Positions 14,113 through 41,453 of a DNA stretch of 64,000 nucleotides are shown here, in pieces (the first letter of the stretch is position 1; each line of letters begins with the position of its first letter). The position numbers and the translations under genes are program-made. This DNA is from Sphingomonas ginsenosidivorax (GTDB lineage: Bacteria > Pseudomonadota > Alphaproteobacteria > Sphingomonadales > Sphingomonadaceae): NCBI RefSeq assembly GCF_007995065.1, contig NZ_VOQR01000001.1, positions 1,987,001-2,051,000 of the forward strand. The letters run 5' to 3'. A model generated the notes under the pieces. It saw nothing but the letters and a program-made list of their open reading frames with translations, did not search any database and had not been told where the DNA came from.

Positions 14113-14146
14113 TTCGCCTATATGAACTCTTGATCGTATCTACGAC
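14113..14146 (+). promoter_or_regulatory. Shared regulon element, site A (MaoC-ligase operon)
   Basis: Two 14-base boxes with a six-base spacer: TTCGCCTATATGAA and ATCGTATCTACGAC. They match the consensus TTCGNATATNCGAA derived from nine sites. It lies immediately upstream of the minus-strand operon starting at 14107. Confidence 0.7.
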
Positions 14147-14223
14147 GTGAATACGCGTCGCTGGTCGGAAGTGTCAACCCGGCTGCCGGCGCTCGACGGC
14201 CGGTCCATGCCTAACCGCCGGTC

Positions 14224-17181
14224 TCACAGTTTGAACCTGACCCCTGCGCGCAAGACGGGACCGTCGACATCGTAGATCACTGCGGTGTTCGCGCCGTTGC
14301 CGAACGCGTTCCCCGCCGCGGTCAGGCCGGGATCGCGATTGGTCAGATTGCGTGCGTTGAAGAACACCGACATGTCCTTCACCGGCCCGATGCTCAGATC
14401 GTAGCTGATCGCGAAATCGAGATAGACGCGCCCGGGCAGGTAATTGTCGTTGACGGTGGGGTTCTGCGACGTGCTCGCCGGGCAGGACGCGGTGCATTCG
14501 ACGAAGTTGGAGAATTGCTTGCCCGACGCGAATGCGCGCGCGGTCAGCGAGGTGCGCAGGCCGTCGAGATGATAGCCGAGCGTCACGTTCGTCCGCCAGC
14601 GCGGCGGATAGATGCTGCTGATCTCACCGACGAAGTCGTTCGGCGCGCTGACCCCGTTGTCGATCGTGTCCTCGAGATATTTGGTGAAGTTGGCGTGCAG
14701 ATCGACGCTGCCCGGCAGACCGAGCCCGGTCAGCTCGCTGCGGTAGCTCGCCTCGAAATCGAGCCCGCGCACCTTCTCGCTGGCGATGTTGATGTTCTGG
14801 CTGATGACCTGGCTGACCACGCCGTTGACGCGGGTGATGTTGTTGCACAGCGCCGGATCGGACCCGTCGAAGCACAGCAGCAGCACGTCGGCGGGCTGGA
14901 TGATCGAGATCGCGTCGGCGACCTTGATGCTCCAATAGTCGACCGAGGCACTGAACCCAGGGAAGAAGGACGGGGTGAAGACCGCGCCGACGCCCAGCGT
15001 ATCCGCCTTTTCCGGGCGCAGATTGCGGTTGCCCGTGGTGGTCTGGTCGAACGCCGGCGTGGTGTTGGTGAAGGGATCGAAGATCGAGCGGCGGGCGGTG
15101 GACGCCGGCAGGAAGGTCTCCTGCAGATTGGGCGCGCGGATGTCGCGCGAGCGCGTTGCACGGAACGTCAGGTCGGCGACCGGGGAATAGGTCGTGCCGA
15201 GCTTCCAGGTGGTGACGTTGCCCGCCAGACTGTAGCTGGTGAAGCGCACCGCACCGTTGATGTCCCAGGAATCCGCCCAGCTCAGCTTCTTGGCGAGCGG
15301 GATGATCGTCTCGAACGCACCTTCCTTGACGTTGGTCGAGCCGTCGATTGCGGTGTAGTTGGCGTAGATGTGATCGACCGCGAGTGAGCCGGCATCGACG
15401 ACCGACTTCGCCTGGTCCTTGCGATATTCACCCGACAGCGCGACCGACACCGGGCCCGCCCAGGTCGAGAACGGCTCGCCCGACAACGAGGCCGCCAGGA
15501 CGGTCTGCTCGACCTTCAGCCTGGACCGGCTCGCCGAGCGGATGAAGTTCACCGCGGCACCGTCCGGATCGTTCACGCCGAAGCCCAGCGCGTTGTACGG
15601 CGAACAGCCATTGTTCGGCGAGGTCAGCGTCGAGCGGCAGACTATAGCGCCGGTCGCGGGATTGCGGACCGCGTCGACCGCGAGCGCATAATTGGTGCGC
15701 GAGATGTTGGTCGGAAACGTCACCAGGTTGCGGCTGACGCCGTACTGGCCATAGGCATCCCATTGCCAGTCGCCGCCCAGCATCTGGAACTTGCCGTTGC
15801 CGCCGAGCTGATAGGACTGCGCCTTGCGGTCGGTGATCTGGTAGGTGATGCCCAGATCCCGGTTGAGCGTGCCGATGCGGATCGACGACAGGCCGGCGGC
15901 GACCATCCGCGCGCGCACGTCGGCGGGCAGATAGGCGTTGTCGCGCTGGATCACCGGGCCGCTCGACCCGATCATGTAGACGGTGGTGAGGTCCGCCTGC
16001 GTCTTGGCGCGGACATAGGAGCCTTGCGCGTACAGGTTCAGCGCGTCGGACACTTCGTAGTTCGCGCGTGCATAGGCGGTCTGGCGGCTTTCCGACGGCG
16101 CGACCGCGTTGGTACGGCGCAGGTCGTTCTGCTCCCAGTCGCCGCCGCGCATGAAGGGGTCGGCCTGGATGTCGCCGTAATTCTGCTGATAGGTCTGCCC
16201 GCCCTGGCCGAACGCGGTGCCGCGCAGCGGTCCCGAATACACCACGCCGCCGGGCGACGAGGTCATGTAGCCGACATTGCCGAGGATCAGCCGCTGCGGC
16301 TGGCCGTTTGTCGCGGTGTAGGCAGGGTTGGCCAGCAGTTGAACGCCGCGCCGGTTCCAGTCGCGGCGGTTCGCGCCGATGCCTTCGTCATGCACCTGCT
16401 CGAGCGCGACGACGACATGACCGCGATCGTCTGCGAACTTGGTGCCGCCGGCGAGGCTGATCTTGTAGTTCTCACCGTCGCCGTAGGTCGTGGCGCCGCC
16501 CGAGACTTCGCCCTTCAGGCCGGTCAACGACCGGTCGAGGACGAAGTTGACGACGCCGGCCACCGCGTCCGAGCCGTAGGTTGCCGACGCGCCCCCGGTC
16601 ACGACGTCGACGCGCGAGATCAGGATCTGCGGGATCGCGTTGACGTCGACCACACCGGTGGACAGCGCCGGCGTTACGCGGTGACCATCGAGCAGCACGA
16701 GCGTGCGGTTGGCGCCGAGCGCACGCAGGTTCAGCGAATTGACGCCGGCCGAACCGTTGGAGCCGGTAGTCGTGCTGGAGCGCGTGCTGGCCGATCCGGC
16801 GAACGCCGGCAGGTTGGTGACGAACTGCGCGATATTGGCGTTCGCGTTGGTGGCGAGCTGTTCGGTGCCGATCACCGACATCGGCGTCGGCGCCTGGTAC
16901 CCGTCGCGGACGATGCGCGAGCCGGTGACGATGATGTCCTGCGTCGATGTCGATTCAGGCTCCTGCGTCACGGCTTGCGTGACGGTCGCCTCCGCGGTCG
17001 GGGGCGGTGCGCCATCGGTCGGCACCGTGGGGCTGGGCGAAGGCGAAGCGGCGGGCGCGGTCTGCGCGGACACCGCGTTCAGCGACAACGCGAACGCCGC
17101 GCTGGTCGACAGCAGGGCCAGCAGGACGCGGCGATGTGCCGATCCGCGGGTGGTCGAATCCGAGTTCAAATGAGCGTTCAT
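14224..17181 (-). CDS. TonB-dependent outer-membrane receptor 1
   Basis: 985 residues. Start at 17181 with GGAGGGG six bases upstream, followed by a signal peptide (VLLALLSTSAAFALSLNAVSAQ) and a Pro/Ser/Thr-rich linker. The plug begins at the TonB-box-like DIIVTGSRI (about residue 90) and contains NLRALGANRTLVLLDGHRV and GGASATYGSDAVAGVVNF. The long barrel ends in the aromatic-type C-terminus LRAGVRFKL. The pattern matches the large sphingomonad receptor subclass. It imports an unknown ligand across the outer membrane with TonB energy. Alone in its transcript, with shared element B 55 bases upstream. Probably the main uptake porin for the catabolic block, because the second receptor is interrupted. 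Confidence 0.93.
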   Translation of the reverse strand: MNAHLNSDSTTRGSAHRRVLLALLSTSAAFALSLNAVSAQTAPAASPSPSPTVPTDGAPPPTAEATVTQAVTQEPESTSTQDIIVTGSRIVRDGYQAPTPMSVIGTEQLATNANANIAQFVTNLPAFAGSASTRSSTTTGSNGSAGVNSLNLRALGANRTLVLLDGHRVTPALSTGVVDVNAIPQILISRVDVVTGGASATYGSDAVAGVVNFVLDRSLTGLKGEVSGGATTYGDGENYKISLAGGTKFADDRGHVVVALEQVHDEGIGANRRDWNRRGVQLLANPAYTATNGQPQRLILGNVGYMTSSPGGVVYSGPLRGTAFGQGGQTYQQNYGDIQADPFMRGGDWEQNDLRRTNAVAPSESRQTAYARANYEVSDALNLYAQGSYVRAKTQADLTTVYMIGSSGPVIQRDNAYLPADVRARMVAAGLSSIRIGTLNRDLGITYQITDRKAQSYQLGGNGKFQMLGGDWQWDAYGQYGVSRNLVTFPTNISRTNYALAVDAVRNPATGAIVCRSTLTSPNNGCSPYNALGFGVNDPDGAAVNFIRSASRSRLKVEQTVLAASLSGEPFSTWAGPVSVALSGEYRKDQAKSVVDAGSLAVDHIYANYTAIDGSTNVKEGAFETIIPLAKKLSWADSWDINGAVRFTSYSLAGNVTTWKLGTTYSPVADLTFRATRSRDIRAPNLQETFLPASTARRSIFDPFTNTTPAFDQTTTGNRNLRPEKADTLGVGAVFTPSFFPGFSASVDYWSIKVADAISIIQPADVLLLCFDGSDPALCNNITRVNGVVSQVISQNINIASEKVRGLDFEASYRSELTGLGLPGSVDLHANFTKYLEDTIDNGVSAPNDFVGEISSIYPPRWRTNVTLGYHLDGLRTSLTARAFASGKQFSNFVECTASCPASTSQNPTVNDNYLPGRVYLDFAISYDLSIGPVKDMSVFFNARNLTNRDPGLTAAGNAFGNGANTAVIYDVDGPVLRAGVRFKL

Positions 17182-17270: not shown

Positions 17271-17451
17271 AATGATTTAGGTTTGGTGGGTTGTCAATCA
17301 TGTGCGGCGAGAACGCTGCGATAGGGGGCGCTATGGTCCGCGCGTGGACCTGACGCGGACAGGAATCCCGCCGCTGGCAACGGCGACGAGGAGCGGGCTT
17401 CGGGCATAAGCGAGGGCGAAGGCGGCCTGTCGAGGCACGCGGCGCGCCAAA

Positions 17452-19653
17452 TCAGGCGATCGGCGGCAGCCTGTCCAGATAGGTGTCCAGCGTGATGGGA
17501 AAATCACGCACGCGGGCCCCGGTGGCGTTGTAGACCGCGTTGGCGATCGCCGCGCCGATCCCGGTCATGCCGAGCTCGCCCACTCCCTTGGCCTTCATCG
17601 GTGAGATGGTCGGGTCGACCTCATCGATGAAGATCGCCTCGGTATGCGGGATGTCGGCATGGACGGGCACCTCATAGCTGGCGAGATCGTGGTTCACGAA
17701 GAAGCCGAATCTCTTGTCGATCGCGAGCGCCTCCATCAGCGCGCCCCCTGCCCCCATTGTCATCGCGCCGATCACCTGGCTGCGAGCGGTCTTGGGATTG
17801 AGGATGCGCCCCGCCGCACACACCGCCAGCATCCGCCGCAACCGCAATTCGCCCGTCATCGCGTGGATCGCGACTTCGACGAAATGCGCGCCGAACGCTG
17901 CCTGTTCGTAGGTCTTGCTCATCGCCTCGTCGAATTCGAGGATGTCCTCCGCGACCAGCTCGCCCGCCTTCGCTGCATCGACCAGCGCGACCCGTCGGTT
18001 GCCCGAGCGGACGACGCCGTCGGCGAAATCGACATCGGTGCCGTTGAACCCGAGCCGTTGCGCGACCTGTTCGCGCAGCTTCACGCACGCCGCGTACAAC
18101 GCCGAGGTCGAACTGGTCGCACCGCGCTGGCCGATCGATCCGACCGACAAGGGATAGTCCGAATCACCGAGGCGGACGACGACCCGGTCGAGTTCCACCC
18201 CCATCATCTCGGCCGCGGTCTGGCCCAGGATGGTGTAGCTGCCGGTCCCGATGTCGGTCATGTCGGTTTCGACGATCACGCGGCCGTCGACCGCGAGTCG
18301 CACCCGGGCCGACGAATTCCGCACCCGGGCGCCGCGCACCGCCGCCGCGACCCCCATGCCGATCAGCCAGGCGCCTTCGCGCCGCCCGCCCGGCTTGGCG
18401 ACACGCTTGTCCCACCCGAACCGCGCCGCACCCGTCTGCAGGCACTGCACGAGATTGCGTGTCGAGAACGGCTTGTCGGGCTCGGTCGGGTTGACACGCG
18501 TGTCGTTGCGGATGCGCAGTTCGACCGGGTCCATGCCCAGTTGGTCGGCGAGTTCGTCCATTGCCGATTCGATCGCCAGCATGCCCGGCGCCTCGCCCGG
18601 GGCGCGCATGGCGTTGCCCTCGGGCAGGTCGAGCACCGCCATCCGGTGCTGCGTCGCGCGGTGGTCGCCCGCATACATCAGCGGCGTCGGAATGGTCGCC
18701 GCCTCCGCAGCGCCGTCGGCATGGAGATTGCCGGACCAGCTCTGATGGCCGAACGCGGTGATGCGGCCGTCGGCGGTCGCCCCGATCCGGATGCGCTGCA
18801 CCGTCGCCGGGCGGTGCGTGCCCATGTTGGCGATCAGCGGCCGGCCGATCGCGATCTTGACGGGCCGACCGACGGCGCGCGACGCGAGCGCCGCCATGAC
18901 CGCGTCCGCCAGCACCGACGCCTTGCCGCCGAACCCGCCGCCGACGAACGACGCGACCATGCGGATCCGGTCGATCGGGATGTTCAGGATCTTCGCCAGA
19001 TCGCGGCGCGCCCAGAAGACCACCTGCTGCGAGGTCCACAACGTCACCCGGTCGCCCTGCCAGCTGGCGATCGTGGCATGGGGCTCCATCGCCGCATGGC
19101 TCTGGTCGGGCGTCGTGTATCGGGTGTCGAGCCGGACCGGGGCGTCGGCGAACGCCTTGGCAAAATCGCCGCGCGCGGTATCGGGGAAGCGCGGATGCGC
19201 CACCGCCGTACCGATCTGCGCGGCCAGGTCGAACCGCCCCGACTGCCGGGCGTAATCGACGCGCACGAGGGCGGCGGCGGCGCGCGCCTGTTCGAACGTT
19301 TCTGCGACGACCACCCCGATCGCCTGGTTGTAATGCTGGATATCCGGCCCGCCCAGCACCGTCGCGCGGAACAGCTCGCCGACCCCCATCGGCCCGACGT
19401 CCCGCGCCGTCACGACACCGAGCACGCCGTGCGCCGCCAGCGCATCGCGCGTGTCGAGCGTGCGGATGCGCCCCTTGGCGATCGCGCTGCCGATCACATG
19501 ACCGTACACCGCGTCCGGCACGGCATCGCGGCGTTCATAGGCGTATCGCGCGAGTCCCGTGACCTTGAGCGGCCCGTCGATCCGGTCCTTGGCCTGTCCC
19601 ACGACCTTCATCCGGTCGATCGGGTTGGCGCCTTCCGGCTTGTCGAACTTCAT
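17452..19653 (-). CDS. Xanthine dehydrogenase-family molybdopterin-binding subunit (stand-alone)
   Basis: 733 residues of the large subunit of molybdenum hydroxylases. Seen: the N-terminal a/b-hammerhead domain (VTGLARYAYERRD), molybdopterin-binding segments QQVVFWARRDLAKIL, VASFVGGGFGGKA and NAMRAPGEAPGMLAIE, and the expected catalytic Glu in KGVGELGMTGIGAAIANAV. Such subunits hydroxylate aldehydes or N-heterocycles with water-derived oxygen. They normally work with a 2Fe-2S subunit and a FAD subunit, neither of which is encoded next to it. Start at 19653 after GGGAGAGGGTGG; no signal peptide. Divergent from the serine hydrolase, sharing element C. It must use partner subunits from elsewhere or a different acceptor. 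Confidence 0.9.
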   Translation of the reverse strand: MKFDKPEGANPIDRMKVVGQAKDRIDGPLKVTGLARYAYERRDAVPDAVYGHVIGSAIAKGRIRTLDTRDALAAHGVLGVVTARDVGPMGVGELFRATVLGGPDIQHYNQAIGVVVAETFEQARAAAALVRVDYARQSGRFDLAAQIGTAVAHPRFPDTARGDFAKAFADAPVRLDTRYTTPDQSHAAMEPHATIASWQGDRVTLWTSQQVVFWARRDLAKILNIPIDRIRMVASFVGGGFGGKASVLADAVMAALASRAVGRPVKIAIGRPLIANMGTHRPATVQRIRIGATADGRITAFGHQSWSGNLHADGAAEAATIPTPLMYAGDHRATQHRMAVLDLPEGNAMRAPGEAPGMLAIESAMDELADQLGMDPVELRIRNDTRVNPTEPDKPFSTRNLVQCLQTGAARFGWDKRVAKPGGRREGAWLIGMGVAAAVRGARVRNSSARVRLAVDGRVIVETDMTDIGTGSYTILGQTAAEMMGVELDRVVVRLGDSDYPLSVGSIGQRGATSSTSALYAACVKLREQVAQRLGFNGTDVDFADGVVRSGNRRVALVDAAKAGELVAEDILEFDEAMSKTYEQAAFGAHFVEVAIHAMTGELRLRRMLAVCAAGRILNPKTARSQVIGAMTMGAGGALMEALAIDKRFGFFVNHDLASYEVPVHADIPHTEAIFIDEVDPTISPMKAKGVGELGMTGIGAAIANAVYNATGARVRDFPITLDTYLDRLPPIA

Positions 19654-19706
19654 CCACCCTCTCCCAAGGTCCCGGGCAGTCGTTGACAGCACCCGTCAGC
19701 AGTAAT

Positions 19707-19740
19707 AGCTGATATACGATCGTTCGTTCGATAATGCGAA
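19707..19740 (-). promoter_or_regulatory. Shared regulon element, site C (divergent molybdoenzyme / serine hydrolase)
   Basis: Read on the minus strand: boxes TTCGCATTATCGAA and ATCGTATATCAGCT with a six-base spacer. It sits between divergent genes, 53 bases from the molybdoenzyme start and 65 bases from the serine hydrolase start. The first box resembles the published PcaR-type IclR box GTTCGATAATCGCAC. Confidence 0.75.
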
Positions 19741-19805: not shown

Positions 19806-21257
19806 GTGGTCCGAAAGGACGTCCCGCATCGCCCGATGCACGCGAAGCCCGTCGCGGTCTTGGCCATCCTCGCCGTGACGGTCGCCGCCGCGGCTCAGCG
19901 CGCACCGGGGACCGCACGGCACGGCACCGCGCAATATGCAGGCATGCGCGCCCTGCATCTGTGTACGGGCTATTTCGCGACCGAAGCGCCACGCGCGCTG
20001 ATCGATGCGACGATCGAGGCCAATGCCGGTCCTGCCCCCGCGACCCCGATGCGCACCGAGGTCGACGAACGTGCGCGCACCGTCTCGGTCCGCTACGCCG
20101 CTGACATGCCGCCGCGCATCGCGGTGTCGCGGGCGGGCATGGGCTGCACGATGCTGCCGATCGGTGCGGATGTCGCGCTGGCGAAACAACTGATCCGCGT
20201 CCCGCTCGAGGCACCACGTCTCGACGACCGCTCTTGGCCCATGGGCGACCGCGACGCGCGCGCGCCGCTGCCGGCACGAGACGAAGCGGCGGTCGAGCGC
20301 GTCCTCGACGCCGCCTTCGAGGACGAAAAGGGCGCGTATGGCGGCAAGACCTGGGGCGTGGTCGTGCTGCACGACGGGAAGATCGTCGCCGAACGCTACA
20401 GCCACGGATTTGCACGCCACATCGCTGCGCGGACCAATTCGATGTGCAAGAGTCTGGGCGCCACGCTGGTCGGCGTCGGGGTTCGGACCGGACGCGTCGA
20501 TCTCAACCGCCCCGCGCCACTTGCGGAATGGCGCACGCCGGGCGATCCGCGTGGCGCGATCACCACCGACAATCTGCTGCGGATGACCAGCGGGCTCTAC
20601 AGTGACGGCCCGCAGGACCCGCAGGTCGAGATCTATCGATCCGGCGCGGCGATCGCCGATATCGCCGCCCGCAACATGATGGACGCGCAGCCGGGCACGC
20701 GCTTCGTCTATGCCGGCACCGACACGAACCTGGCGATGCGCGGCCTGCGCCAGGCTCTGTCGGAGGATGCAGCCTACCCCGCCTTCCCGTATCGTGCGCT
20801 GTTGTGGAAGCTCGGCATGACGCGGACGGTCGTTGAGACGGACTGGAACAACGACTTCATCGTGTCGGGTCAATGCTGGAGCACCGCGCGCGACTTTGCG
20901 CGACTGGGGATGCTCTATCTCGCCGACGGGCGCTGGAACGGTGAACGCCTTCTGCCCGCCGGCTGGACGACATACGTGTCGTCGCCCCTCTCCGTGCAAC
21001 CGAAGAGGCCCAGTATCGGCGGCGATGCCGGCTACGGCGCGCAGTTCTGGCTGTTCGGCGGCATGGACGGGCTGCCCAGCGACGCCTTCTCCGCGTTCGG
21101 CGCGATGGGGCAATATGCAGTGATCGTGCCGTCGAGGAACCTGGTCGTCGTCCGCCGCGGGCTCGACCACGATCCGCCGTTCAGGATCCAGAAGTTTGCA
21201 GCCGATGTGATGAACGCAGTGGCGCCGCAACCCGCTTCCAGGAAGGAACTTCGATGA
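19806..21257 (+). CDS. Exported serine hydrolase, class C beta-lactamase / NylB-like
   Basis: About 483 residues. GTG at 19806 was chosen because GGAGAGGA lies six bases upstream; ATG at 19836 is in frame. A signal peptide follows (AVLAILAVTVAAAAQRAP). After an N-terminal region of about 150 residues with two Cys, the penicillin-recognising fold begins: SMCK (Ser-x-x-Lys nucleophile motif), FVYAGTDTNLA at the place of the Tyr motif, and FGAMGQYAVIVPSRNLVVVRRG near the end. The TDTN pattern is closer to NylB-type amidases/esterases than to true beta-lactamases. It probably cleaves an ester or amide in the periplasm. Its stop overlaps the PrpD-like gene by four bases. Confidence 0.85.
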   Translation: MVRKDVPHRPMHAKPVAVLAILAVTVAAAAQRAPGTARHGTAQYAGMRALHLCTGYFATEAPRALIDATIEANAGPAPATPMRTEVDERARTVSVRYAADMPPRIAVSRAGMGCTMLPIGADVALAKQLIRVPLEAPRLDDRSWPMGDRDARAPLPARDEAAVERVLDAAFEDEKGAYGGKTWGVVVLHDGKIVAERYSHGFARHIAARTNSMCKSLGATLVGVGVRTGRVDLNRPAPLAEWRTPGDPRGAITTDNLLRMTSGLYSDGPQDPQVEIYRSGAAIADIAARNMMDAQPGTRFVYAGTDTNLAMRGLRQALSEDAAYPAFPYRALLWKLGMTRTVVETDWNNDFIVSGQCWSTARDFARLGMLYLADGRWNGERLLPAGWTTYVSSPLSVQPKRPSIGGDAGYGAQFWLFGGMDGLPSDAFSAFGAMGQYAVIVPSRNLVVVRRGLDHDPPFRIQKFAADVMNAVAPQPASRKELR

Positions 21258-22768
21258 CCTCTCATCCCCGGCACCGCGCCGGTCTCGACCGGCGCGGTGC
21301 GTTGAAGAGCGCCGGTGGCCTGCTGGCCGTGTCGATGCTCCCCCTCGATACCGCCGCGGCACAGGATGCCGAGGCCACGAAACCGAGAACACCCCCGCGT
21401 GCGCGGCAGTTCCAGGGGCGGACGCTGACCGCCACGGTCGCCGACTATGCCGCCGCCACCTCGCTCGCCAGGATTCCGCCAGAGGTGCTCGATCGAGCCA
21501 GGAAGGTGGTGTTCGACGAAATGGCCTGCGCCTATTTCGGTTGCACAAGTCCGGGCGCCACCGCCGCGACGCGCCACGTTGCCGGCTGCGGCAGCCCGGG
21601 AGAGGCGCGTATCTATGGCACAGCGCTGCGCGCCTCCGCGCCCTATGCGGCGATGGCCAACGGCACGGCGGGCCACGGCTATGAGGTCGATGGTACGCAT
21701 GTCGTCGGCGGCCATCCCGGCGCCTCGATCGTCCACACCGTCACCGCGATCGCGGAGAAGCAGAATGCATCGGGCGCGGAGCTGCTCAACGCGGTGATCC
21801 TAGCCTACGATGTCGGCGTGCGCATCGTCGAGGCGTGCGGCGGCAAGTTCAGTGTGCGCGATCGCCGGCACCTCACGAGCGACTTCTTCTACGCGATGGG
21901 CGGCACCGCCGCGGCCGCGCGTATCCTCAAGCTTTCGCCGACGCGCCATCGCCATGCATTGGCGCTGGTCACGTTCCAGACAAACGGCCTGTACGCGCTG
22001 TATGCGGAGAAGGACCACATCAGCAAATCCTTCTGCAACGGCCAATACGCCTTCGCCGCGATCAGTTCGGCGCAGATGGCGCAGGCCGGGCTGGAGGGGA
22101 ACGAGGACATCATCGGCTCGGCCGAGGGCGTGCTCGACGCCTGGGGCGACGGCCGGCACGACGACGCGGTCGTCGCGGGTCTCGGTCGCGATTTCAAGAT
22201 CATGGGCGCCAACTTCAAGTTCTACAACGCGGGCTACCCGATCCATACGCCGATCGAGGCGGTCCAGACGATCATCAGGCAGAATGCCATCGCCAACGAC
22301 GCGATCCAGTCGATCCTGATCGGCATGCCGCAGAACGCGATGAAGGTCGTCGACAACCGCGAGATGCACAATATCTCGGTCCAGGACATGGTCGCCGCCA
22401 ATCTCGCCAAGGGCGGATTGAAGCTGGTCGACGAACCCTTCCCGGCGATCCTGTCCGACCCGACCTACAAGAGGCTGCGCACGCTGATCTCGGTGGCGGT
22501 CGACCCCGAGCTGCAGAGCGAATTCCCCAACGGGCGCGGCGCGCGGGTCACCATCGTCACCCGGGACGGCAAACGCCACGTCCTGCGGATCGACAATCCC
22601 CGCGGGCACAGCCTGCGCGGTGATGTCTCGTGGGACGATCTCGCCGAGAAATGGCGCGGCTCACTGCCCAATTGCGACCCCGGCCGAGCGCTGGAGATCG
22701 CCCGGAACCTCGACAAGCTGACGAGCGCGAAGGATCTGTTCGCGGCCTTTGCGGGGACCAACGGCTAA
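21254..22768 (+). CDS. MmgE/PrpD-family protein with Tat signal
   Basis: 504 residues. The N-terminus LDRRGALKSAGGLLAVSM has twin Arg before a hydrophobic stretch and a likely cleavage after DTAAAQ, so it appears exported by Tat. The mature part is MmgE/PrpD: TVADYAAATSLARIPPEVLDRARKVVFDEM, ANGTAGHGYEVDGTH, GAILAYDVG-like helix (AVILAYDVGVRIVEACG) and YPIHTPIEAVQ. The family includes 2-methylcitrate dehydratase and other dehydratases or decarboxylases, which normally act in the cytoplasm. Translation is coupled to the serine hydrolase by ATGA overlap with AAGGA upstream, suggesting they act in sequence in the periplasm. The reaction is not known. Confidence 0.87.
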   Translation: MTSHPRHRAGLDRRGALKSAGGLLAVSMLPLDTAAAQDAEATKPRTPPRARQFQGRTLTATVADYAAATSLARIPPEVLDRARKVVFDEMACAYFGCTSPGATAATRHVAGCGSPGEARIYGTALRASAPYAAMANGTAGHGYEVDGTHVVGGHPGASIVHTVTAIAEKQNASGAELLNAVILAYDVGVRIVEACGGKFSVRDRRHLTSDFFYAMGGTAAAARILKLSPTRHRHALALVTFQTNGLYALYAEKDHISKSFCNGQYAFAAISSAQMAQAGLEGNEDIIGSAEGVLDAWGDGRHDDAVVAGLGRDFKIMGANFKFYNAGYPIHTPIEAVQTIIRQNAIANDAIQSILIGMPQNAMKVVDNREMHNISVQDMVAANLAKGGLKLVDEPFPAILSDPTYKRLRTLISVAVDPELQSEFPNGRGARVTIVTRDGKRHVLRIDNPRGHSLRGDVSWDDLAEKWRGSLPNCDPGRALEIARNLDKLTSAKDLFAAFAGTNG

Positions 22769-22824: not shown

Positions 22825-22845
22825 CAAGGGGTTGGCAGAACGGCA

Positions 22846-23643: not shown

Positions 23644-23652
23644 CGATCGGCG

Positions 23653-25365: not shown

Positions 25366-25399
25366 TCCATATATACGCATAATCGATCGTATCTGGAAA
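25366..25399 (+). promoter_or_regulatory. Shared regulon element, site D (divergent esterase / CMD-cupin)
   Basis: Boxes TCCATATATACGCA and ATCGTATCTGGAAA with a six-base spacer. It lies 57 bases upstream of the esterase start (25308) and 75 bases upstream of the CMD-cupin start (25475), so one element can serve both directions. Confidence 0.7.
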
Positions 25400-26659: not shown

Positions 26660-26721
26660 TCCTTCATTTGCGGCACGCATATCCGAAGCCGGCAGAAGTC
26701 CGGCGAGTTGGGGAGAAGAAC

Positions 26722-29352: not shown

Positions 29353-29409
29353 CCGTATCGGATCGCGTTTCCTTGTCAAGCGAATGCGCCGCGAACGCGA
29401 CGCGCGCCG

Positions 29410-30637: not shown

Positions 30638-30671
30638 TGCGTATATACGTCTATCGTTTTCCATAAACGAA
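30638..30671 (-). promoter_or_regulatory. Shared regulon element, site F (divergent MaoC 2 / transporter)
   Basis: Minus strand: boxes TTCGTTTATGGAAA and GACGTATATACGCA with a six-base spacer. It lies almost exactly midway, 56 bases from the MaoC start (30582) and 57 bases from the transporter start (30728). Confidence 0.7.
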
Positions 30672-30727
30672 CTTGTGGCCCGGGAGCAGCTGTGTCAACC
30701 ATCCGGAAAACACAATGAGGATGGCGA

Positions 30728-33135: not shown

Positions 33136-33158
33136 GCCTGCGACTACGGTCGCGGCCT
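33134..33158. terminator. Hairpin at convergent gene ends
   Basis: AGGCC(T)GCGAC and (G)GTCGCGGCCT form an inverted repeat spanning the two stop codons of the hydrolase and the SRPBCC gene. No U-tract; possible bidirectional termination. Confidence 0.35.
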
Positions 33159-33686
33159 GCCGCTCTCCACGATCGCCTTCATCCGCTGCAAGGCGGGCAT
33201 CAGCCGCGCGCGTCGCGCCGCGAATTCGACCTCGCGCTGCGCCGGCGGGACGACGGAATTGTCCCAGAAGAACGAATAGACGATCCGAGACTTGCCGGCA
33301 TCGGCGGCGCGGACTTCCAGCGTGTTGTGCTGCATCGTGTAGGGCACGCCGATACGCACGGGAAACGCATAGGTGTAGGACATCGGTGTGGTGGCCACGA
33401 TCGCTTCGATCGTCCCGCCGGCCAGCGTCCGCACCGCGCCGAGTTCGCCCTCCGTTCCGGAGGTGATCGTGCAATCGCGCGGCAGCCATTCCTCGAGATC
33501 GCAGAAGCGGCCGATCCGCGCCCACGTCTCGGCCGCGGGCCGGTCGACCACGATCTCCAGCCGTTGCGTCACATAGTTCGGCGCCGCGATCGCCAGCGGT
33601 GTGGTCGGCGGCGCGGATGGCGACAGCTGACCCCAGGCAACGGTGGCGGACAGAAGGCAGGACACGAAAAGGCTGGTGCGGATCAT
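33144..33686 (-). CDS. Exported SRPBCC/START-like lipid-fold protein
   Basis: 180 residues from ATG 33686 with GGAG five bases upstream. Signal peptide FVSCLLSATVAWGQ. The mature part has the polyketide-cyclase/SRPBCC pattern: TQRLEIVVDRPAAETWARIG, FCDLEEWLP, CTITSGTEGELGAVRTL, and SRIVYSFFWDN. SRPBCC proteins bind hydrophobic ligands in a deep cavity; some are cyclases or hydroxylase components, most are unknown. It is the last gene of the receptor 2 - GH3 - SRPBCC transcript, so a periplasmic ligand-binding role for the same compound is plausible but unproven. Confidence 0.8.
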   Translation of the reverse strand: MIRTSLFVSCLLSATVAWGQLSPSAPPTTPLAIAAPNYVTQRLEIVVDRPAAETWARIGRFCDLEEWLPRDCTITSGTEGELGAVRTLAGGTIEAIVATTPMSYTYAFPVRIGVPYTMQHNTLEVRAADAGKSRIVYSFFWDNSVVPPAQREVEFAARRARLMPALQRMKAIVESGRPRP

Positions 33687-33730: not shown

Positions 33731-35884
33731 TCAGGGTGCGATCGTGCGCGCCGCCAGGCGCACGGTCGTCGTGGCCCCGAGGTCCTCCGCCGACCGCCCG
33801 ATCGCGAACGCGTAGTTGCCCGCGTCGAGCGCCCACCCCGTGCCCGACCATCGGGACAGCAACCGCGGATCGATCGCCATCGTCACGGCCCGCGTTTCAC
33901 CGGGTTGGAGCTCGACCCTCGCAAAACCGGCGAGACGGCGCAGCACTTGGCCGTTGCGGCGTGTCAGATAGAGTTGGACCACGTCGGCGCCGGCCCGCGC
34001 CCCGGTGTTGGTGACCGTGACCCGGGCGCTCAGACGACGGCCATCGACGGCCGGCTGGCTGTGACGAAATTGCGTGTAGCTGAGCCCGTGCCCGAAGGCG
34101 AACAGCGGCTTGCGCGACTGCCCCGCGTACCAGCGATAGCCCACGTCCGCGCCCTCGACATAGTCGACCCCGAACTGGTGCGTTCCGTCATCGGGAAGCC
34201 CGAGACCTTCCGGACGCGCACGGGGCGCCTGCGCGGCGGTCGCCGGGAAGGTGATCGGCAGCCGGCCCGACGGATTGACCCTGCCGGTCAGGACGTCGGC
34301 GATCGCCGCCCCGCCCTCCTGCCCCGAATACCACGCCTCGACGACCGCGCGCACCTTGCCGAGCCAGGGCATCGCGACGGGGTTGCCCGTTTCCAGCACC
34401 ACGACGGCGTTCGGATTGGCCGCCGCGACCAGTTCGATCAGCCGATCCTGTCCGTCGGGCAGCGCGAGCGACGGATTGTCGATGCTCTCGACCTGCCATT
34501 GATTGGCGAAGACGAGGACGAGATCGGCATGCGCGGCGCGCGCCGCCGCCAGCTCGGGCGAATAGCCGGGATCGAATTCGATCGTCGCACCCGGCAGCTG
34601 CGCCCGGAGCGCGTCGAGCGGCGAGGACGGCATCAACACCTGATAGCCACTGACCTCGAGAAACGGGCTGCCACCGAACGGCAGCCGTACCAGCGGTCCG
34701 CCGACCGGGGTCACCTGACTCGATCCCCCACCCGACCAAATGCCACGATTGGCGTAGCGCCCGACGATCAGGATCGTCTTCGCGGTCGTCGCAAGCGGCA
34801 GCACGCCGTCGTTCTTGAGCAGGACGATCCCGGCCCCCGCGGCCTCGCGCGCGACCCGCGCGTTCGCGGCATAGTCGATCGGTGTTTCCGCCAGCGGTGC
34901 GTCGGCGCCCACCGCGTACAGCGAGCGCAGGATGCGCCGGACCGATGTCGGCAAGGCCTCGCGCGGGACCGTCTTGCCGAGCGCCGCGCGGAGTGGCTTG
35001 TCGAACCACACCTGCGAGTCGAGCTGGGCGCCCGACTGCTGGTCGAGTCCCGCCGCCATGTCGGTGGGGCCGTGCGTCGCGCCCCAGTCCGACATGACAT
35101 AGCCCTTGAACCCCCAGTCGCCGCGCAGCACGCGGTTCAGCAGCCAGTCGTTCGCGCAGCTATGTGCCGCGTTGATCTTGTTGTACGCGCACATGATCGC
35201 GCCCGGCCGTCCACGCTCGAGGGCGATCTCGAACGCGAGCAGGTCGGATTCACGCAGTTCCGCCTCGGCGATCCGCGCGTCGATCGAATGCCGCAGCGTT
35301 TCCTGCGCATTCAGCACGAGGTGCTTGGCAGTCGAGACGACGCGCTGCGACTGGATGCCGCGGATCGATTCCCCCGCCAGCACGCCGGCCAGCAGCGGAT
35401 CCTCGCCGAGATACTCGAAATTGCGCCCGCCGAACCAGTCGCGCGTCAGGTTGACGCCGCCCGCCAGCAGGACGTTGAACCCCTTCGCGCGCGCCTCGCC
35501 GCCGATCATTGCGCCCGTCCGCCGCGCCAGGTCGGGGTCGAAGCTGGCAGCGAGCGCGAGCCCGGAGGGCAGCGCGGTGGCGACGTCGCCGATCCGGCTC
35601 ATCTTCGGGTTGGTGACGCCCAGGCTCGCGTCGGTTTCGTAGATGCCGGGAAAATCGAGCCGCGGGATCGGCGGATAATAACCCGCCGCCGGCTTCACAT
35701 ACGCGGGCGTCGGCGCCGGCCCCCTTCGCGACGCTACCGGCATATACCCCCAGACGAGCGAGAAGCGTTCCTCCTCGGTCATCTGCCGCTCGACCGCCGC
35801 CGCCCGCGCGTCCGGATCCGCGGTCTGCGCGTGCGCCTGCCCTGCCGCCGCAACCAGCCAGGCCAGCATCGCGATATGCTTCAT
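33731..35884 (-). CDS. Glycoside hydrolase family 3 (beta-glucosidase type), exported
   Basis: 717 residues with a signal peptide (MLAWLVAAAGQAHAQ). GH3 N-domain motifs: FPGIYETDASLGV, ALPSGLALAASFDPDLA, STAKHLVLNAQE, ARIAEAELRESDLLAFE, and the nucleophile Asp (about 266) in GYVMSDWGATHG. The C-domain includes GIVLLKNDGVLPL and WYSGQEGGAAIADVL, and a fibronectin-III-like end follows (LFAFGHGLSYTQF, VTVTNTGARAGADVVQLYL). It removes terminal beta-linked sugars in the periplasm. Second gene of the transcript led by receptor 2. The presence of a glycosidase suggests that the imported compound is, or includes, a glycoside. The start at 35884 is chosen for the signal peptide. Confidence 0.93.
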   Translation of the reverse strand: MKHIAMLAWLVAAAGQAHAQTADPDARAAAVERQMTEEERFSLVWGYMPVASRRGPAPTPAYVKPAAGYYPPIPRLDFPGIYETDASLGVTNPKMSRIGDVATALPSGLALAASFDPDLARRTGAMIGGEARAKGFNVLLAGGVNLTRDWFGGRNFEYLGEDPLLAGVLAGESIRGIQSQRVVSTAKHLVLNAQETLRHSIDARIAEAELRESDLLAFEIALERGRPGAIMCAYNKINAAHSCANDWLLNRVLRGDWGFKGYVMSDWGATHGPTDMAAGLDQQSGAQLDSQVWFDKPLRAALGKTVPREALPTSVRRILRSLYAVGADAPLAETPIDYAANARVAREAAGAGIVLLKNDGVLPLATTAKTILIVGRYANRGIWSGGGSSQVTPVGGPLVRLPFGGSPFLEVSGYQVLMPSSPLDALRAQLPGATIEFDPGYSPELAAARAAHADLVLVFANQWQVESIDNPSLALPDGQDRLIELVAAANPNAVVVLETGNPVAMPWLGKVRAVVEAWYSGQEGGAAIADVLTGRVNPSGRLPITFPATAAQAPRARPEGLGLPDDGTHQFGVDYVEGADVGYRWYAGQSRKPLFAFGHGLSYTQFRHSQPAVDGRRLSARVTVTNTGARAGADVVQLYLTRRNGQVLRRLAGFARVELQPGETRAVTMAIDPRLLSRWSGTGWALDAGNYAFAIGRSAEDLGATTTVRLAARTIAP

Positions 35885-35960: not shown

Positions 35961-38255
35961 TCAGAACTTGAAGCCGGCGCGTACGCCATAGGTCCGCGGG
36001 TCGGCGACCTGCACGCTGGCACGCGCGCCCACCACGACGGTCGATACGGTCACCGCATCCTCGAGGTTCTTGACGTAGCCCTGGACGTAGAAGCGCGCGT
36101 CCGGTGCATTGTAGGTCAGCGTCAGGTCGGTCTTCATGAAGCTCGGCTGGCGGTAGAAGTTGCGCGAGCCGATGATGAACAGCGAATAGCTGTCGCTGAC
36201 GCGCGTCCGCGCGCCCGCCACCAGTTCGCCGGCACTGCCGAGCGGAATCGTGTACTGCGTTCCCGCGGTGACCACCCAGTCGGGCGAGCGATCCAGCTGC
36301 CGCCCGGCGAAATTGTAAGGCGGCAACGCGAACTCGTCATAATGCGCGTCGAGATAGGCGACCGAGAAGTCCGCGCGGATATAGCGGACCGGGGTCAGCA
36401 CGGTTTCGGCCTCGATCCCGCTGACCTTTGCCCGGCCACCGTTCGTGGTGACGAGGCAGGACAGGCCGCCGCCGCAATCGCTGACGAGCTACGACAGCTG
36501 CAGGTTGTTGTAGTCATAGTGGAACGCCGACGCGTCCAGCCGGACCGCATTGTCGAGGAACCGGGTCTTGATGCCCGCCTCGTAGGAGGTCAGCGTTTCC
36601 GGATCGTAATAGAGCGCGTCGGCGGTGAGGGTGCAGCCCGTGCCAGTCCCGCGCTCGCACCCGTCGTTGAAGCCGCCCGCCTTGTAGCCCGTCGAAACGG
36701 TACCGTAGAGCAGCGTCGTCGGGGTAAGGTCGTAATCCAGGCCGAGCCGCCAGGTCGTCTTGGCGAACGTCGCCGACGCATTGTTGTTCGGCACGGCGTT
36801 CGCCGGCCGTGCGCAGGTGAAGAACGATGCGCAGGTGACCGTGTACCCGACACGCGACTTGTCGTCGTGCGAGTAGCGCGCGCCGGCCGTGAAGCGGAGC
36901 GAGTCCGTCAACGCGTACGTACCCTGTCCGAAGAAGGCGTAGGACTTCGCCTTGGTGGGATCCTGAAAGAAGGCCAGCGTCGTGCCGTCGCCGGTGCGCC
37001 CCGGATTGGCCGTGCCGATCAGCCCCTTGAGAACAATGTCCGAATCTTCCTTGAAGAAATAGCCGCCGCCCTGCAGCGTCAGCGGGCCGCCGCCGTTGGT
37101 CGCGAGGCGCAGTTCGTGCGACTGCTGGCGGTAATGGCCGTCATAGGAATAATGATAGGCCAGCGCCGCATCGGGGGAGATGCGCGCATCCTCCTCGTCT
37201 CGCTTGAACCGGCGATAGGAGCCGACATAGGAGACCGTGATCGGGCCGACATCCTGCGTCAGTTCGCCGCCGATGCCCCAGCTGTAGTTGCGACGATACA
37301 GGTCCCAGCCGATGTTCGCGTTCTCGGTCATGTAGGCGCGGCGCGATCGCTTGAGCCGGATCGGATCGATGCCGGTGGGGGTGTCGGCATAGAAGTTGCG
37401 GATCGGCAGCAGATCGAAGACGTGGCCGCCAATATCCGAATAGTCGCCGCGCAGCAGCAGGTTGCCGCTGTTCCATTTATACAGACCCGACACGCGCCCG
37501 GACAGGTTCTTGCGGAACGGATCGCTTCGGCCCGTCACCTGCGGACCGAAGCGCGTGAAGGTGTCGCGCTGGTCGAAATTGCCGGCGACGCGGAAGGCCA
37601 GGTTCTGACTGACCGGCAGATTGACCGCGGCACTTGCCTGGCACGCATCGTAATTGCCGTAACCGACGTCCACCGAGCCGCCGAACCGATCGAATGTCGG
37701 GCGGTTCGAGATCACGTTGATCAGCCCTGCGGTGGTGTTGCGGCCGTAGAGAGTGCCCTGCGGGCCGCGCAGCACTTCGACGCGGGCGACGTCGAAGAAG
37801 CTGACTTCCTGCGCCTGCGGGCGTGCGATGTAGACGCCGTCGGCCAGGAACGCCGCAGACGGATCGCCGCGCTCCGACACGTCGGTGCTCGTCACGCCGC
37901 GGATGGTGACCTGAACGCCGCCGCTGTTGCGATCGATCGAGATGTTGGGGACCTGGTCCGCCAGCGCGGTCGGGTTGGTGATGCCCGCCGCGCGCAAGCC
38001 GTCGCCCGTGATCGCCGAAATCGCGACCGGCGTCTTCGACAGCAGCGATTCGGTGCGGTTCGCGGTGACGATGATGTCCTGTGCATCGGTCGGATCGGTG
38101 GTCGGCGCCTGCCCCGCTGCCGCTTGGCCCGTTGCCGTCTGGCCCGCTGCCGTTTGGCCTGCTGCCGTCTGGCCCGTCGACTGCTCCTGGGCAAACGCCG
38201 GAACCGTCGTCAACGCCAATGCCGAAGCAGTGCAAAAATATGAAACGAGCTTCAC
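35961..38255 (-). pseudogene. TonB-dependent receptor 2, interrupted by an in-frame amber codon
   Basis: The reading frame from GTG 38255 (GGGGGAGG upstream) to the stop at 35961 would encode 764 residues, but a TAG at 36489-36491 stops it after 588. The same frame continues directly (LVSDCGGGLSC, then AETVLTPVRYIRADF) to a proper barrel end, YGVRAGFKF. A single base change from TAC would restore it. Other features are normal: a signal peptide, a Gly-Gln-Thr-Ala repeat linker, TonB box DIIVTANR, plug motifs SIDRNSGGVQVTIRGV and VLRGPQGTLYGRNTTAG. Possible causes are a real null allele, a sequencing error, or rare suppression. Leads the transcript with GH3 and SRPBCC genes under element G. Confidence 0.85.
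38113..38177 (-). repeat. Tandem 15-base repeat encoding a Gly-Gln-Thr-Ala-Ala linker
   Basis: About four copies of a 15-base unit near the start of receptor 2 encode GQTAAGQTAAGQTATGQAAA. The units keep frame and lie between signal peptide and TonB box, where length can vary. Confidence 0.8.
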
Positions 38256-38294: not shown

Positions 38295-38328
38295 TTCGCA
38301 TATCCGATCTATCGGTCGTATTTATGCA
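38295..38328 (+). promoter_or_regulatory. Shared regulon element, site G (receptor 2 operon)
   Basis: Boxes TTCGCATATCCGAT and GTCGTATTTATGCA with a six-base spacer, 39 bases upstream of the receptor 2 start at 38255. Confidence 0.72.
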
Positions 38329-38595
38329 TACTCTGGCGTCTTCATATTTTCCGTTCTCCTGTCTGTCAATGCGGTTTCAACTTGGTGCGCGCAGACGATA
38401 CCGGTGATCACCGCTGGTTGGACTTGATCCGGGGACACTTGCCGCGTGTTCGCGTGGCCACAGTAGAATAGAGCGCGGCTCGAACGGGCGGCTTTGCTAC
38501 GACTAATCTGGCGAACCCTGTAGTGGGTTTGGCAGCATAGCTGACCTAACTGCGCGATGAGTTTCGTGCTTGACCGCCCCCACAACCGAATTATG

Positions 38596-38629
38596 TTCCC
38601 GCATACAAAGCATGGTTCGTATTTACGGA
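38596..38629 (+). promoter_or_regulatory. Shared regulon element, site H (PQQ dehydrogenase)
   Basis: Boxes TTCCCGCATACAAA (weaker) and TTCGTATTTACGGA (strong) with a six-base spacer, 70 bases upstream of the dehydrogenase start at 38700. Confidence 0.65.
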
Positions 38630-38699: not shown

Positions 38700-41114
38700 A
38701 TGATCGATGATGAGCGTCCAGCGGTTTCGGCCGGGAAAGTTGGAACGTCCCGCGGTTCGCCATGGGCGACGCTGGCCTTGGGTATGCTCGGGCTCGTCTT
38801 CCTCGCAATCGGCCTGTTCATGCTCGTCGGCGGGATCCGCCTGGCGTCGCTGGGCGGGTCGCTGTACTTCGCGCCGGCCGGGCTCGGACTGATCATCGCC
38901 GGCGGACTGACGATGCTGCGCCGTCCGCTGGGCGCGGTGCTCTATCTCGTCGTGTTCGCGGCCACCATCGTCTGGGCTCTCGTGGATGCCGGGGTCGCCT
39001 TCTGGCCGCTCTTCTCGCGCCTGTTCGCGCCCGCCGTGCTCGCGGTGCCGACGCTGTTGCTGCTGCCCGCCTTCCGCTATCGCGCGCCCCGTCCGTTTCC
39101 ACGCGTCGCCCTGGCCGCCGCGGTGCTGGTCGTGCTGGGGCTCGTCGCCACGGGCTATGCGGCGTTCCAGCCGCGGATGATCGTCGCCGCGCAGGACGCA
39201 CCGGCACCACGCCCGGGCAAGGCCGTCGATGGTGCACCCGCTGGTGAGTGGCCGGCCTGGGGTCGGACCAACGCCGGCACGCGCTATTCGCCGCTGGACC
39301 AGATCACCCCCGCCAATGTCGCGAAGCTGGCGGTCGCGTGGACCTATCGGACCGGCGATATTCCCAAGGGCGGCCAGGCGCATGTCGTCACGCCGCTGCA
39401 GGTCGGCGGAAAGCTCTATGGCTGCACGCCGACCAGCCGGGTGTTCGCGCTCGATGCCGAGAGCGGCCGGCAAATATGGGCGTTCGACCCCAAGGCGACC
39501 GGCATCCGGTTCCCCCGCTGCCGCGGCGTTGCCTATTTCGACGCGACGACAGGCGGCAGCGGGGAACCGGGCCTCGCGCAGACCGACGAATGCGCGCAGC
39601 GGATCCTGTCGACGACGGTCGACGCGCGCCTGCTCGCCGTCGATGCGCGCACCGGCCGTGCCTGCTCGAATTTCGGTATCGAAGGGCAGGTCGACCTGAC
39701 GCGCGACATGGGACTGATCCGCTCGGGTATGCTGTTCCAGACCTCCGCACCGCTGGTGGCGCGCGGACTGGTGATCATGGGCGGGCGGATCAACGACAAC
39801 CAGGATGTCGACGTGCCGTCCGGCGTGATCCGCGCGTTCAGCGCGCGGACCGGGGAGCTTGTCTGGGCCTGGGACCTCGGCAATCCGGCGATCACCAAGC
39901 GGCCGCCCGAGGGCCAGACCTATACGCGTTCGACCCCCAATGTCTGGGCGCCGCCCGCCTATGACGATACGCTGGGGCTGCTCTATCTGCCGATGGGCAA
40001 TTCCTCGCCCGACTTCTGGGCCGGGCGGCGCAGCCCGGTGGCCGATGCCTATTCGTCCGCGATCGTCGCGCTCGATATCGGCACGGGGCGCGAGCGCTGG
40101 AAGTTCAACACCGTCCATCACGACGTCTGGGACTACGACATCCCTGCGCAGCCCGCATTGTACGACGTGCCTAACGGCCAGGGTGGATCGACCCCGGCGC
40201 TGTTGCAGGTGACCAAGCGCGGGCAGATCTTCCTGCTCGACCGCCGCAACGGGCGTCCGATCGCACCGGTTGCGGAACGCCCCGTACCGCAAGGCGCGGC
40301 GCCCGGCGACTGGCTGTCGCGCACGCAGCCCTATTCGGTCGGCATGCCGTCGATCGGCACGGAGCGGCTGTCGGAATCGCGGATGTGGGGCGCGACGCTG
40401 CTCGACCAGCTGCTGTGCCGCATCGCGTTCCGCAAGGTACGCTACGACGGCGACTTCACGCCACAGACGACGCAGGGCACGCTCCAATGGCCCGGCTGGT
40501 CGGGCGGGATGAACTGGGGTTCGGCCTCGATCGCCGAGAATCTCGGCTATGTCATCGTCAACGACATCCGCGTCCCGATGATCAACCGGCTGGTCCCCCG
40601 CGCGGACTATGCCGCGCGCGAAAAGGCCAAGGTGAAGGGCGACATCTTCTCGCCGCAGGCGGACACGCCGTTCGGGCTGCTGCAGACGCGGTTCATGTCG
40701 CCGATCGGGGTTCCGTGCCAGGAACCGCCCTATGGCACGATCACCGCGATCGACCTTGCCACGCGGAAGATCGCCTGGTCGAAGCCGCTGGGCACGGTGC
40801 AGGATACCGGCCCCCTCGGCATCGCCACGGGGCTGCAGGTCCCGATCGGCATGCCGACGCTGGGTGGACCCATCACCACCGCGTCGGGGCTGATATTCAT
40901 GGCGGGGACGCAGGATTACTATCTCCGCGCGCTCGACCTGCGCTCGGGCAGGGAATTGTGGAAGGGGCGGCTGCCGGTCGGCGGCGAGACCACGCCGATG
41001 ACCTATGTCGCGCCGCGCAGCGGACGGCAGTTCGTGCTGATCAGCGCCGGCGGAAACCGCTCGACGGAAATCCGCGGGGACTACGTCATCGCCTACGCCC
41101 TGCCGGGGCGATAG
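38700..41114 (+). CDS. Membrane-bound PQQ-dependent dehydrogenase (glucose/quinate/shikimate family)
   Basis: 804 residues. The first 150 contain five hydrophobic segments (for example LGMLGLVFLAIGLFMLVGG, LYLVVFAATIVWALVDAG), the quinone-reducing membrane anchor of this family. From about residue 170 comes the PQQ propeller: WPAWGRTNAGTRYSPLDQITPANVAKL, GCTPTSRVFALDAESGRQIW, HHDVWDYDIPAQP, FLLDRRNGRPI and GGPITTASGLIFMAGTQDYYLRALD. It oxidises a sugar or cyclic polyol on the periplasmic face and passes electrons to ubiquinone. PQQ synthesis genes are not in the window. Under element H. It may oxidise the sugar freed by the GH3 enzyme, or a quinate-like moiety freed by an esterase; the sequence cannot decide. 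Confidence 0.92.
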   Translation: MIDDERPAVSAGKVGTSRGSPWATLALGMLGLVFLAIGLFMLVGGIRLASLGGSLYFAPAGLGLIIAGGLTMLRRPLGAVLYLVVFAATIVWALVDAGVAFWPLFSRLFAPAVLAVPTLLLLPAFRYRAPRPFPRVALAAAVLVVLGLVATGYAAFQPRMIVAAQDAPAPRPGKAVDGAPAGEWPAWGRTNAGTRYSPLDQITPANVAKLAVAWTYRTGDIPKGGQAHVVTPLQVGGKLYGCTPTSRVFALDAESGRQIWAFDPKATGIRFPRCRGVAYFDATTGGSGEPGLAQTDECAQRILSTTVDARLLAVDARTGRACSNFGIEGQVDLTRDMGLIRSGMLFQTSAPLVARGLVIMGGRINDNQDVDVPSGVIRAFSARTGELVWAWDLGNPAITKRPPEGQTYTRSTPNVWAPPAYDDTLGLLYLPMGNSSPDFWAGRRSPVADAYSSAIVALDIGTGRERWKFNTVHHDVWDYDIPAQPALYDVPNGQGGSTPALLQVTKRGQIFLLDRRNGRPIAPVAERPVPQGAAPGDWLSRTQPYSVGMPSIGTERLSESRMWGATLLDQLLCRIAFRKVRYDGDFTPQTTQGTLQWPGWSGGMNWGSASIAENLGYVIVNDIRVPMINRLVPRADYAAREKAKVKGDIFSPQADTPFGLLQTRFMSPIGVPCQEPPYGTITAIDLATRKIAWSKPLGTVQDTGPLGIATGLQVPIGMPTLGGPITTASGLIFMAGTQDYYLRALDLRSGRELWKGRLPVGGETTPMTYVAPRSGRQFVLISAGGNRSTEIRGDYVIAYALPGR

Positions 41115-41453
41115 GGTTCGCTGCAGCGCGACCCGGTATCGGCATCAGGTCCCCGCCAAGCGGGGCAAACATTGCCGAACGGACGAGCGGCGGCGGCGAC
41201 ACCCGGTCCGCGTCCTCGCCCTCCGTCACCATCGGCGCCCTTTCCCTTGCCGGTGGAACAGCGGCAACGGCGCCTCACCGAACGTAGTTTTCTACGCGGG
41301 GGCTTCTCAAAGCCTATTGCCGCAACGCACCGCCCCCGCATGCCAACTATGATCCGCCGCGCGAAAGACATTTGCCAATAGCCGATCCTTGCCATACCTT
41401 CTTTATATACGACTCGAAGATCGTAAATAGGAACTAACAGGGAGAGGAAGACC
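41115..41453. other. 339-base intergenic region
   Basis: Between the PQQ dehydrogenase and the lipoprotein esterase. A short CCCCGCC/GGCGGGG-type hairpin lies near 41152-41166 after the dehydrogenase, and shared element I lies near the right end. A small Pro/Arg-rich open frame at 41172-41381 has no start signal or family resemblance and is not called. Confidence 0.6.
41400..41433 (+). promoter_or_regulatory. Shared regulon element, site I (lipoprotein esterase)
   Basis: Boxes TCTTTATATACGAC and ATCGTAAATAGGAA with a six-base spacer, 20 bases upstream of the esterase ATG and abutting its GGGAGAGG ribosome binding site, so it must overlap the promoter or transcription start. Confidence 0.65.

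Follow-up and report, generated by a model that had tools for sequence, protein, structure and literature searches.

What controls the 22 genes that lie between positions 8373 and 43103 of a 64,000-base stretch of the Sphingomonas ginsenosidivorax genome (the whole of which is referred to here as the window)? The predicted proteins of the cluster were assigned by family and profile searches and include an IclR-family regulator (iclR, 22846-23643, plus strand). A sequence-only reading of this DNA had proposed that nine copies of a double palindromic operator define an apparent regulon of this protein. The follow-up analysis suggests that the nine sites are very probably operators of the IclR protein, which would bind them as a tetramer and repress the cluster until an inducer releases it.

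The nine segments align without gaps, as had been described, and each of them consists of two 14-base boxes placed 20 bases apart, start to start.

14113..14146, minus strand: operator 1, preceding the operon of MaoC-type dehydratase 1 (MaoC1), ligase, iron-containing alcohol dehydrogenase, hydrolase and enoyl-CoA hydratase; 5 bases to the start codon
17237..17270, minus strand: operator 2, preceding TonB-dependent receptor 1
19707..19740, both directions: operator 3, common to the PaoC-type subunit (minus) and the beta-lactamase-fold, MmgE/PrpD and (iclR) genes (plus)
25366..25399, both directions: operator 4, common to carboxylesterase 1 (minus) and the carboxymuconolactone-decarboxylase (CMD)-cupin and SGL genes (plus)
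29319..29352, minus strand: operator 5, preceding the class III CoA-transferase
30638..30671, both directions: operator 6, common to MaoC-type dehydratase 2 (MaoC2, minus) and the MFS transporter and hydrolase genes (plus); lowest window-matrix score of the nine
38295..38328, minus strand: operator 7, preceding the receptor 2, family 3 glycoside hydrolase and SRPBCC genes
38596..38629, plus strand: operator 8, preceding the membrane pyrroloquinoline quinone (PQQ) dehydrogenase
41400..41433, plus strand: operator 9, preceding carboxylesterase 2

Taken singly, the boxes are only weakly enriched: with up to three mismatches, one 14-base box matches 25 places in the window (13.6 ± 3.8 expected), and 15 of the 18 boxes deviate from the consensus of the sequence-only reading at two to five positions, the other three at one. 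The double site is a true signal, far beyond chance. Scored with a symmetrised 34-base matrix, leave-one-out, over the 64-kb window, the nine sites reach 19.5-37.5, and the best non-site position reaches 11.4-13.3. Over 300 block shuffles, the maximum averaged 9.9 and peaked at 20.3, and one single position reached 19.5 or more. Moreover, the 34-base pattern (up to three mismatches) occurs at seven places in the 4,135,604-base genome, all of them among the nine cluster sites, and its reversed control at none; the sites at 19707 and 30638 exceed three mismatches and hence are absent from this strict set. A looser 24-base core finds five cluster sites and two places outside with up to two mismatches, and 78 places in total (reversed control, 10), mostly background, at three. 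The confinement to the cluster that the sequence-only reading had noted thus extends to the whole genome for the strict pattern, and a wide, random occurrence was not seen.

Every gene that heads a same-strand run, with the exception of iclR, is preceded by one of the nine operators, and three operators (19707, 25366 and 30638) are shared by divergent genes, again as had been proposed. The distance from operator to start codon had been given as mostly 6-75 bases. Counted from the operator edge to the gene starts, which are predictions throughout the cluster, it is 5-75 bases (39 for receptor 2), whereas the CoA-transferase gene falls outside this range at 170. A lone box, CACGCATATCCGAA, with two mismatches and without an evident partner, is present at 26674-26687, ahead of the beta-propeller gene (26722).

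The protein encoded at 22846 carries an N-terminal HTH_IclR domain (34.6 bits, cut-off 22) and a C-terminal IclR_C domain (47 bits, cut-off 24), both above the Pfam cut-offs. It is not a member of the PcaR/PcaU/PobR family (TIGR02431; 42.8 bits, cut-off 284.75) or of the BhcR family (NF045644; 57.3 bits, cut-off 350). In line with the sequence-only reading, none of the other 21 genes was recognised as coding for a regulator. Elsewhere, the genome has genes for four more IclR_C proteins. The helix-turn-helix region is strongly conserved across 18 aligned orthologues.

A contig scan yielded 15 orthologous loci with 53-77% identity over the best segment and one distant locus (L019) with 25%. The records come from Sphingobium, Sphingomonas, Xylophilus, Pseudoduganella, Azohydromonas, Acidovorax, Pseudomonas and Oceanicola, from several betaproteobacterial metagenome genomes and from one metagenome genome labelled Rhodococcus; in addition, a Paracoccus plasmid encodes a relative of the IclR protein with 47% identity. 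For a matrix built from the window alone, 50 shuffles per locus never scored above 24.7. A double box exceeds this bar in 13 of the 16 orthologue loci scanned (L004-L018 and L020), and in the non-orthologue locus L019 none does. The spacing recurs as well. A single-box matrix that is blind to spacing gave, over 17 loci, 28 pairs at a distance of 20, and no other distance up to 60 had more than two (threshold 8); at threshold 11, there were 16 pairs at distance 20. The 33 sites from orthologue loci together with the nine window sites yield the combined consensus TTCGTATATACGAACAATTGTTCGTATATACGAA; written as boxes and spacer, the consensus of the 42 sites is TTCGTATATACGAA-CAATTG-TTCGTATATACGAA, with C or G adjoining the box on the spacer side. 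In L005, L008, L016 and L021, a MaoC-type dehydratase gene has a site 13-45 bases before its start codon (203 bases in L004), and homology-based starts suggest that such a gene also lies near a site in L009, L010 and L017. The Oceanicola locus carries a second IclR gene (L016:14329-15120), 47% identical, on the opposite strand and approximately 3.5 kb from the first.

The orthologue is rare. With E ≤ 1e-20, it was found in one of 150 relatives, namely the source genome itself, and in 2 of 396 genomes of the order. In the same 396 genomes, the 34-base pattern has at least one match in 79, mostly one or two as expected from background, and at least four matches in two only: the window's genome (seven) and G299 (four, all on the orthologue's contig), with no more than three in any other. 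These two are the same two that carry the orthologue; the exact pair would be hit by chance 1 time in 78,210. The 15 genomes behind the 16 orthologue loci contain 37 places that match the pattern (five for the reversed controls), with a match in 11 of the 15. A second order, centred on an Azohydromonas genome, has the orthologue in 2 of 399 genomes (E ≤ 1e-40). The Azohydromonas genome (G482) has two orthologues and the top count of 11, nine of these on one contig (113-230 kb), and over the 399 genomes the association between orthologue and sites is mixed. Within this genome, the nine strict matches, along with further sites scored by matrix, are spread over approximately 116 kb (G482:C9:113653-229722), and the two iclR orthologues are on other contigs; the spread possibly represents a very large version of the same regulon.

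The placement of the operators relative to putative promoters bears on the direction of regulation. Seven putative -35 boxes are of the TTGAC type.

14172..14177, minus strand: TTGACA, putative -35 of the MaoC1 operon
17292..17297, minus strand: TTGACA, putative -35 of receptor 1
19683..19688, plus strand: TTGACA, putative -35 of the beta-lactamase-fold gene
29374..29379, minus strand: TTGACA, putative -35 of the CoA-transferase gene
30693..30698, minus strand: TTGACA, putative -35 of MaoC2
38364..38369, minus strand: TTGACA, putative -35 of receptor 2
38570..38575, plus strand: TTGACC, putative -35 of the PQQ dehydrogenase

An exact TTGACA is thus found no more than 50 bases upstream of the operator edge on 6 of 12 gene-facing sides, where it starts at -24 to -31 (-41 for receptor 2); a seventh side has TTGACC and an eighth TTGCCA, and the wrong strand of the same 12 sides has TTGAC on none. 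The arrangement is repeated in the relatives: among TTGAC occurrences within 70 bases of the operator edge, 38 of 42 start at -40 to -21 (57 distinct sites with 114 sides, from 25 loci). Given a spacer of 16-18 bases behind the -35 box, the -10 element would abut or overlap the operator (for receptor 2, it would lie approximately 12 bases before it). The protein would then sit on the -10/start region, and repression is therefore the best reading. Moreover, operator 1 leaves no room for a downstream promoter, because the start codon is 5 bases away. The earlier suggestion that the distances favour repression is strengthened by these hexamers at a near-fixed distance from the operator, both in the window and in the relatives, and the IclR protein likely acts as a repressor at the nine promoters.

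Some observations speak against this assignment or lower the weight of its evidence. Three of the 16 orthologue loci scanned (L006, L013 and L018) are without a site above 24.7, although absence of sites at orthologue loci is weak evidence because several contigs are short, and 4 of the 15 orthologue genomes have no strict-pattern match. In the second order, G479 carries the orthologue yet has no more matches than its control (one), and G701 has four matches yet no orthologue at E ≤ 1e-40. Within the window, 4 of the 12 gene-facing sides have neither TTGAC nor TTGCCA in the expected position. The P values for TTGACA assume a whole-window background and a hexamer that was chosen once the sites had been looked at; more weight lies with the wrong-strand control and with the related loci, which are independent.

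The four sides that lack a clear -35 box raise the possibility that the same regulator and operators work mainly in the opposite direction, with IclR as an inducer-dependent activator. The IclR family does include activators, for example PcaU and PobR. However, predominant activation is unlikely, given that the recognisable -35 boxes precede the operator by a near-fixed distance and that operator 1, 5 bases from its start codon, leaves no space for a promoter behind it. It is more improbable still that a regulator encoded elsewhere binds the double palindrome and that the IclR gene is a bystander. The four further IclR_C proteins of the genome would supply candidates, and the four matches in G701 without an orthologue would fit, but no other regulator was recognised among the cluster genes, the sites track the IclR orthologue across classes and across the 396 genomes of the order, and the double-box architecture is of the published IclR type. 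That the palindromes serve as attachment or structural repeats or as ends of mobile elements is hardly credible, since no support for such a role was found, all nine lie in promoter gaps with several tied to -35 boxes, and the sequences have diverged with their register fixed and recur in other gene contexts.

Collectively, the confinement of the sites, the recurrence of the 20-base spacing beside orthologues in other classes and the co-occurrence in 396 genomes, with the second order less clear, turn the apparent regulon of the 22846 protein into a well-supported predicted IclR regulon. In the model that we favour, repression by IclR, two dimers (a tetramer) would bind the two 14-16-base palindromes with centres 20 bases apart; because 20 bases correspond to approximately two helical turns, both palindromes would face the same side of the helix. 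Lying directly behind the -35 box, the sites would extend over the -10/start region, and bound IclR would keep RNA polymerase off the cluster promoters. A substrate or intermediate of the pathway would release IclR, switching on the whole cluster as a unit: the two TonB receptors, the MFS permease, the esterases, the glycosidase, the PQQ and molybdenum dehydrogenases and the acyl-CoA enzymes.

The regulator gene itself starts 77 bases behind the MmgE/PrpD gene on the same strand, so transcripts from the promoter at 19707, which bears operator 3, may run on into it. Immediately ahead of the iclR start codon, at 22811-22844, is a degenerate double-box match (9.6 with the window matrix, 5.8 with the combined matrix). 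It is possibly a weak or decayed autoregulatory site; the match is too weak for autoregulation through 22811 to be claimed in the window. In L005, L010, L011 and L020, sites are present 84-314 bases upstream of iclR.

The genes that accompany the regulator differ between loci. In sphingomonads they code for esterases, molybdenum and PQQ dehydrogenases and TonB receptors, and in others for TctC receptors, aldehyde dehydrogenases and thiolase. We tentatively suggest, with rather less confidence than for the regulon itself, that IclR and its double operator may form a portable regulatory code. The pair would have been retained in Alpha-, Beta- and Gammaproteobacteria amid reshuffled neighbouring genes, and new catabolic genes would join by acquiring a 34-base operator beside a -35 box. 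On the same tentative footing, the scale would range from one or two sites up to the Azohydromonas contig with its nine strict sites over approximately 116 kb.

The 22 genes of the cluster are as follows, assigned by family match unless a score or remark is given.

8373..9179, minus strand: enoyl-CoA hydratase/isomerase family
9173..10114, minus strand: alpha/beta hydrolase
10111..11268, minus strand: iron-containing alcohol dehydrogenase
11326..12906, minus strand: AMP-dependent acyl-CoA ligase
12908..14107, minus strand: MaoC/FAS1-type dehydratase 1
14224..17181, minus strand: TonB-dependent receptor 1
17452..19653, minus strand: PaoC-type molybdenum-binding aldehyde oxidoreductase subunit (1210 bits, cut-off 1180)
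19809..21257, plus strand: beta-lactamase-fold hydrolase (family match; start codon picked by eye from ribosome-site spacing)
21254..22768, plus strand: MmgE/PrpD family protein
22846..23643, plus strand: IclR-family regulator (iclR; scores above)
23653..25308, minus strand: carboxylesterase 1
25475..26659, plus strand: CMD domains fused to cupin
26722..27810, plus strand: SGL-like beta-propeller protein (weak match, below cut-off)
27865..29148, minus strand: class III CoA-transferase
29410..30582, minus strand: MaoC/FAS1-type dehydratase 2
30728..32008, plus strand: MFS transporter
32035..33135, plus strand: alpha/beta hydrolase
33144..33686, minus strand: SRPBCC (polyketide-cyclase-like) protein
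33731..35884, minus strand: family 3 glycoside hydrolase
35961..38255, minus strand: TonB-dependent receptor 2 (in-frame TAG at 36489-36491)
38700..41114, plus strand: membrane-bound PQQ-dependent dehydrogenase of the glucose/quinate/shikimate family (981 bits, cut-off 832.65)
41454..43103, plus strand: carboxylesterase 2

Family and structure searches of these proteins did not fix the substrate of the cluster, and none is named. The ligase has steroid-24-oyl-CoA synthetase as its best NCBIfam match, at 384 bits and so short of the cut-off (750), and this assignment was rejected. Among solved structures, fumonisin B1 esterase (8s6d, 272 bits) is closest in sequence to carboxylesterase 2; the esterase family is broad, and no substrate was adopted from this likeness. 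The cupin of the CMD-cupin fusion scores above the NCBIfam cut-off for (R)-mandelonitrile lyase (157.3 against 140). No iron-sulphur or flavin adenine dinucleotide partner subunit for the PaoC-type protein was recognised among the cluster genes. In receptor 2, the TAG is codon 589 of 765; the frame runs on to 35961 with a tail that still matches the barrel domain, and the portion before the TAG shares 71% identity with a receptor in L005. The stop represents either a broken gene or a sequencing error. A tRNA-Ser (cga) gene follows shortly after the cluster on its right side, at 43357-43446. Horizontal arrival beside this gene is not claimed, as the composition is even and neither a boundary nor an integrase was shown. 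Among the matches listed for 30 relatives, none contains the left flank as a block (the longest covers 995 of 3560 bases), and the tRNA block of the right flank and the trmD block that follows are at separate places in the listed relatives.

Through these assignments, a 22-gene degradation cluster gains a regulator and an operator, together with the way in which they likely act, and other bacteria with the same regulon can be found by scanning for the operator. Dehydratase, ligase, CoA-transferase and dehydrogenase genes, which are difficult to assign by other means, are also connected by the orthologue set. The inducer, once found, would point to the substrate and could give a sensor with nine natural operators. 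The present orthologous group, operator and gene set were not found among the papers listed by searches of an open-access library, with the supplementary tables of PMC8222616 outside this scope; nor was the whole box sequence, of which a 10-letter piece does occur. The regulon is apparently new, and its architecture is of a known kind.

In the text of Suvorova and Gelfand (2021, PMC8222616), tandem palindromes with centres 18-22 bases apart are described for 94 of 181 IclR orthologous groups and read as tetramer binding, for which precedents within the family are cited. The centres in all nine window sites are 20 bases apart, inside this rule, and the sites are likewise mostly centred near start codons of catabolic targets. 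By eye, the box fits the group-1 palindrome consensus of the same paper, GKTYCRYW3-4RYGRAMC, and also the GTNCG-N5-6-CGNAC form. The nearest of the even-length subgroups listed there, NGT-12-ACN, has A in the left half and T in the right half, whereas the present box has mostly T/C and A/G. The likeness to a PcaR-type box that the sequence-only reading had seen holds for the half-sites, which are of the GTTCG...CGAAC type that PcaR, PcaU and PobR have in common with the window's system (PMC8222616), along with the IclR family, and for the group-1 fit; it does not extend to the regulator, which falls outside that family by TIGR02431. Moreover, the PcaU and PobR sites described there have a third half-site, whereas the window sites are two complete palindromes. 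TtgV (PDB 2xrn/2xro) belongs to the same IclR family but has only 28.7 bits to the window protein. PheR of Sphingobium sp. SHPJ-2 is, in the account given in PMC13273656, an IclR repressor with a 44-bp footprint from +23 to -21 and phenanthrene as the inducer. It differs in its inducer, in its recognition sequence (GCAACG) and in that its binding was shown at one operon promoter. However, it is likewise an IclR-family protein of a sphingomonad; TonB receptors, which the window cluster also holds, go up in its mutant, and its footprint is placed close to where the protein would sit on the window operators.

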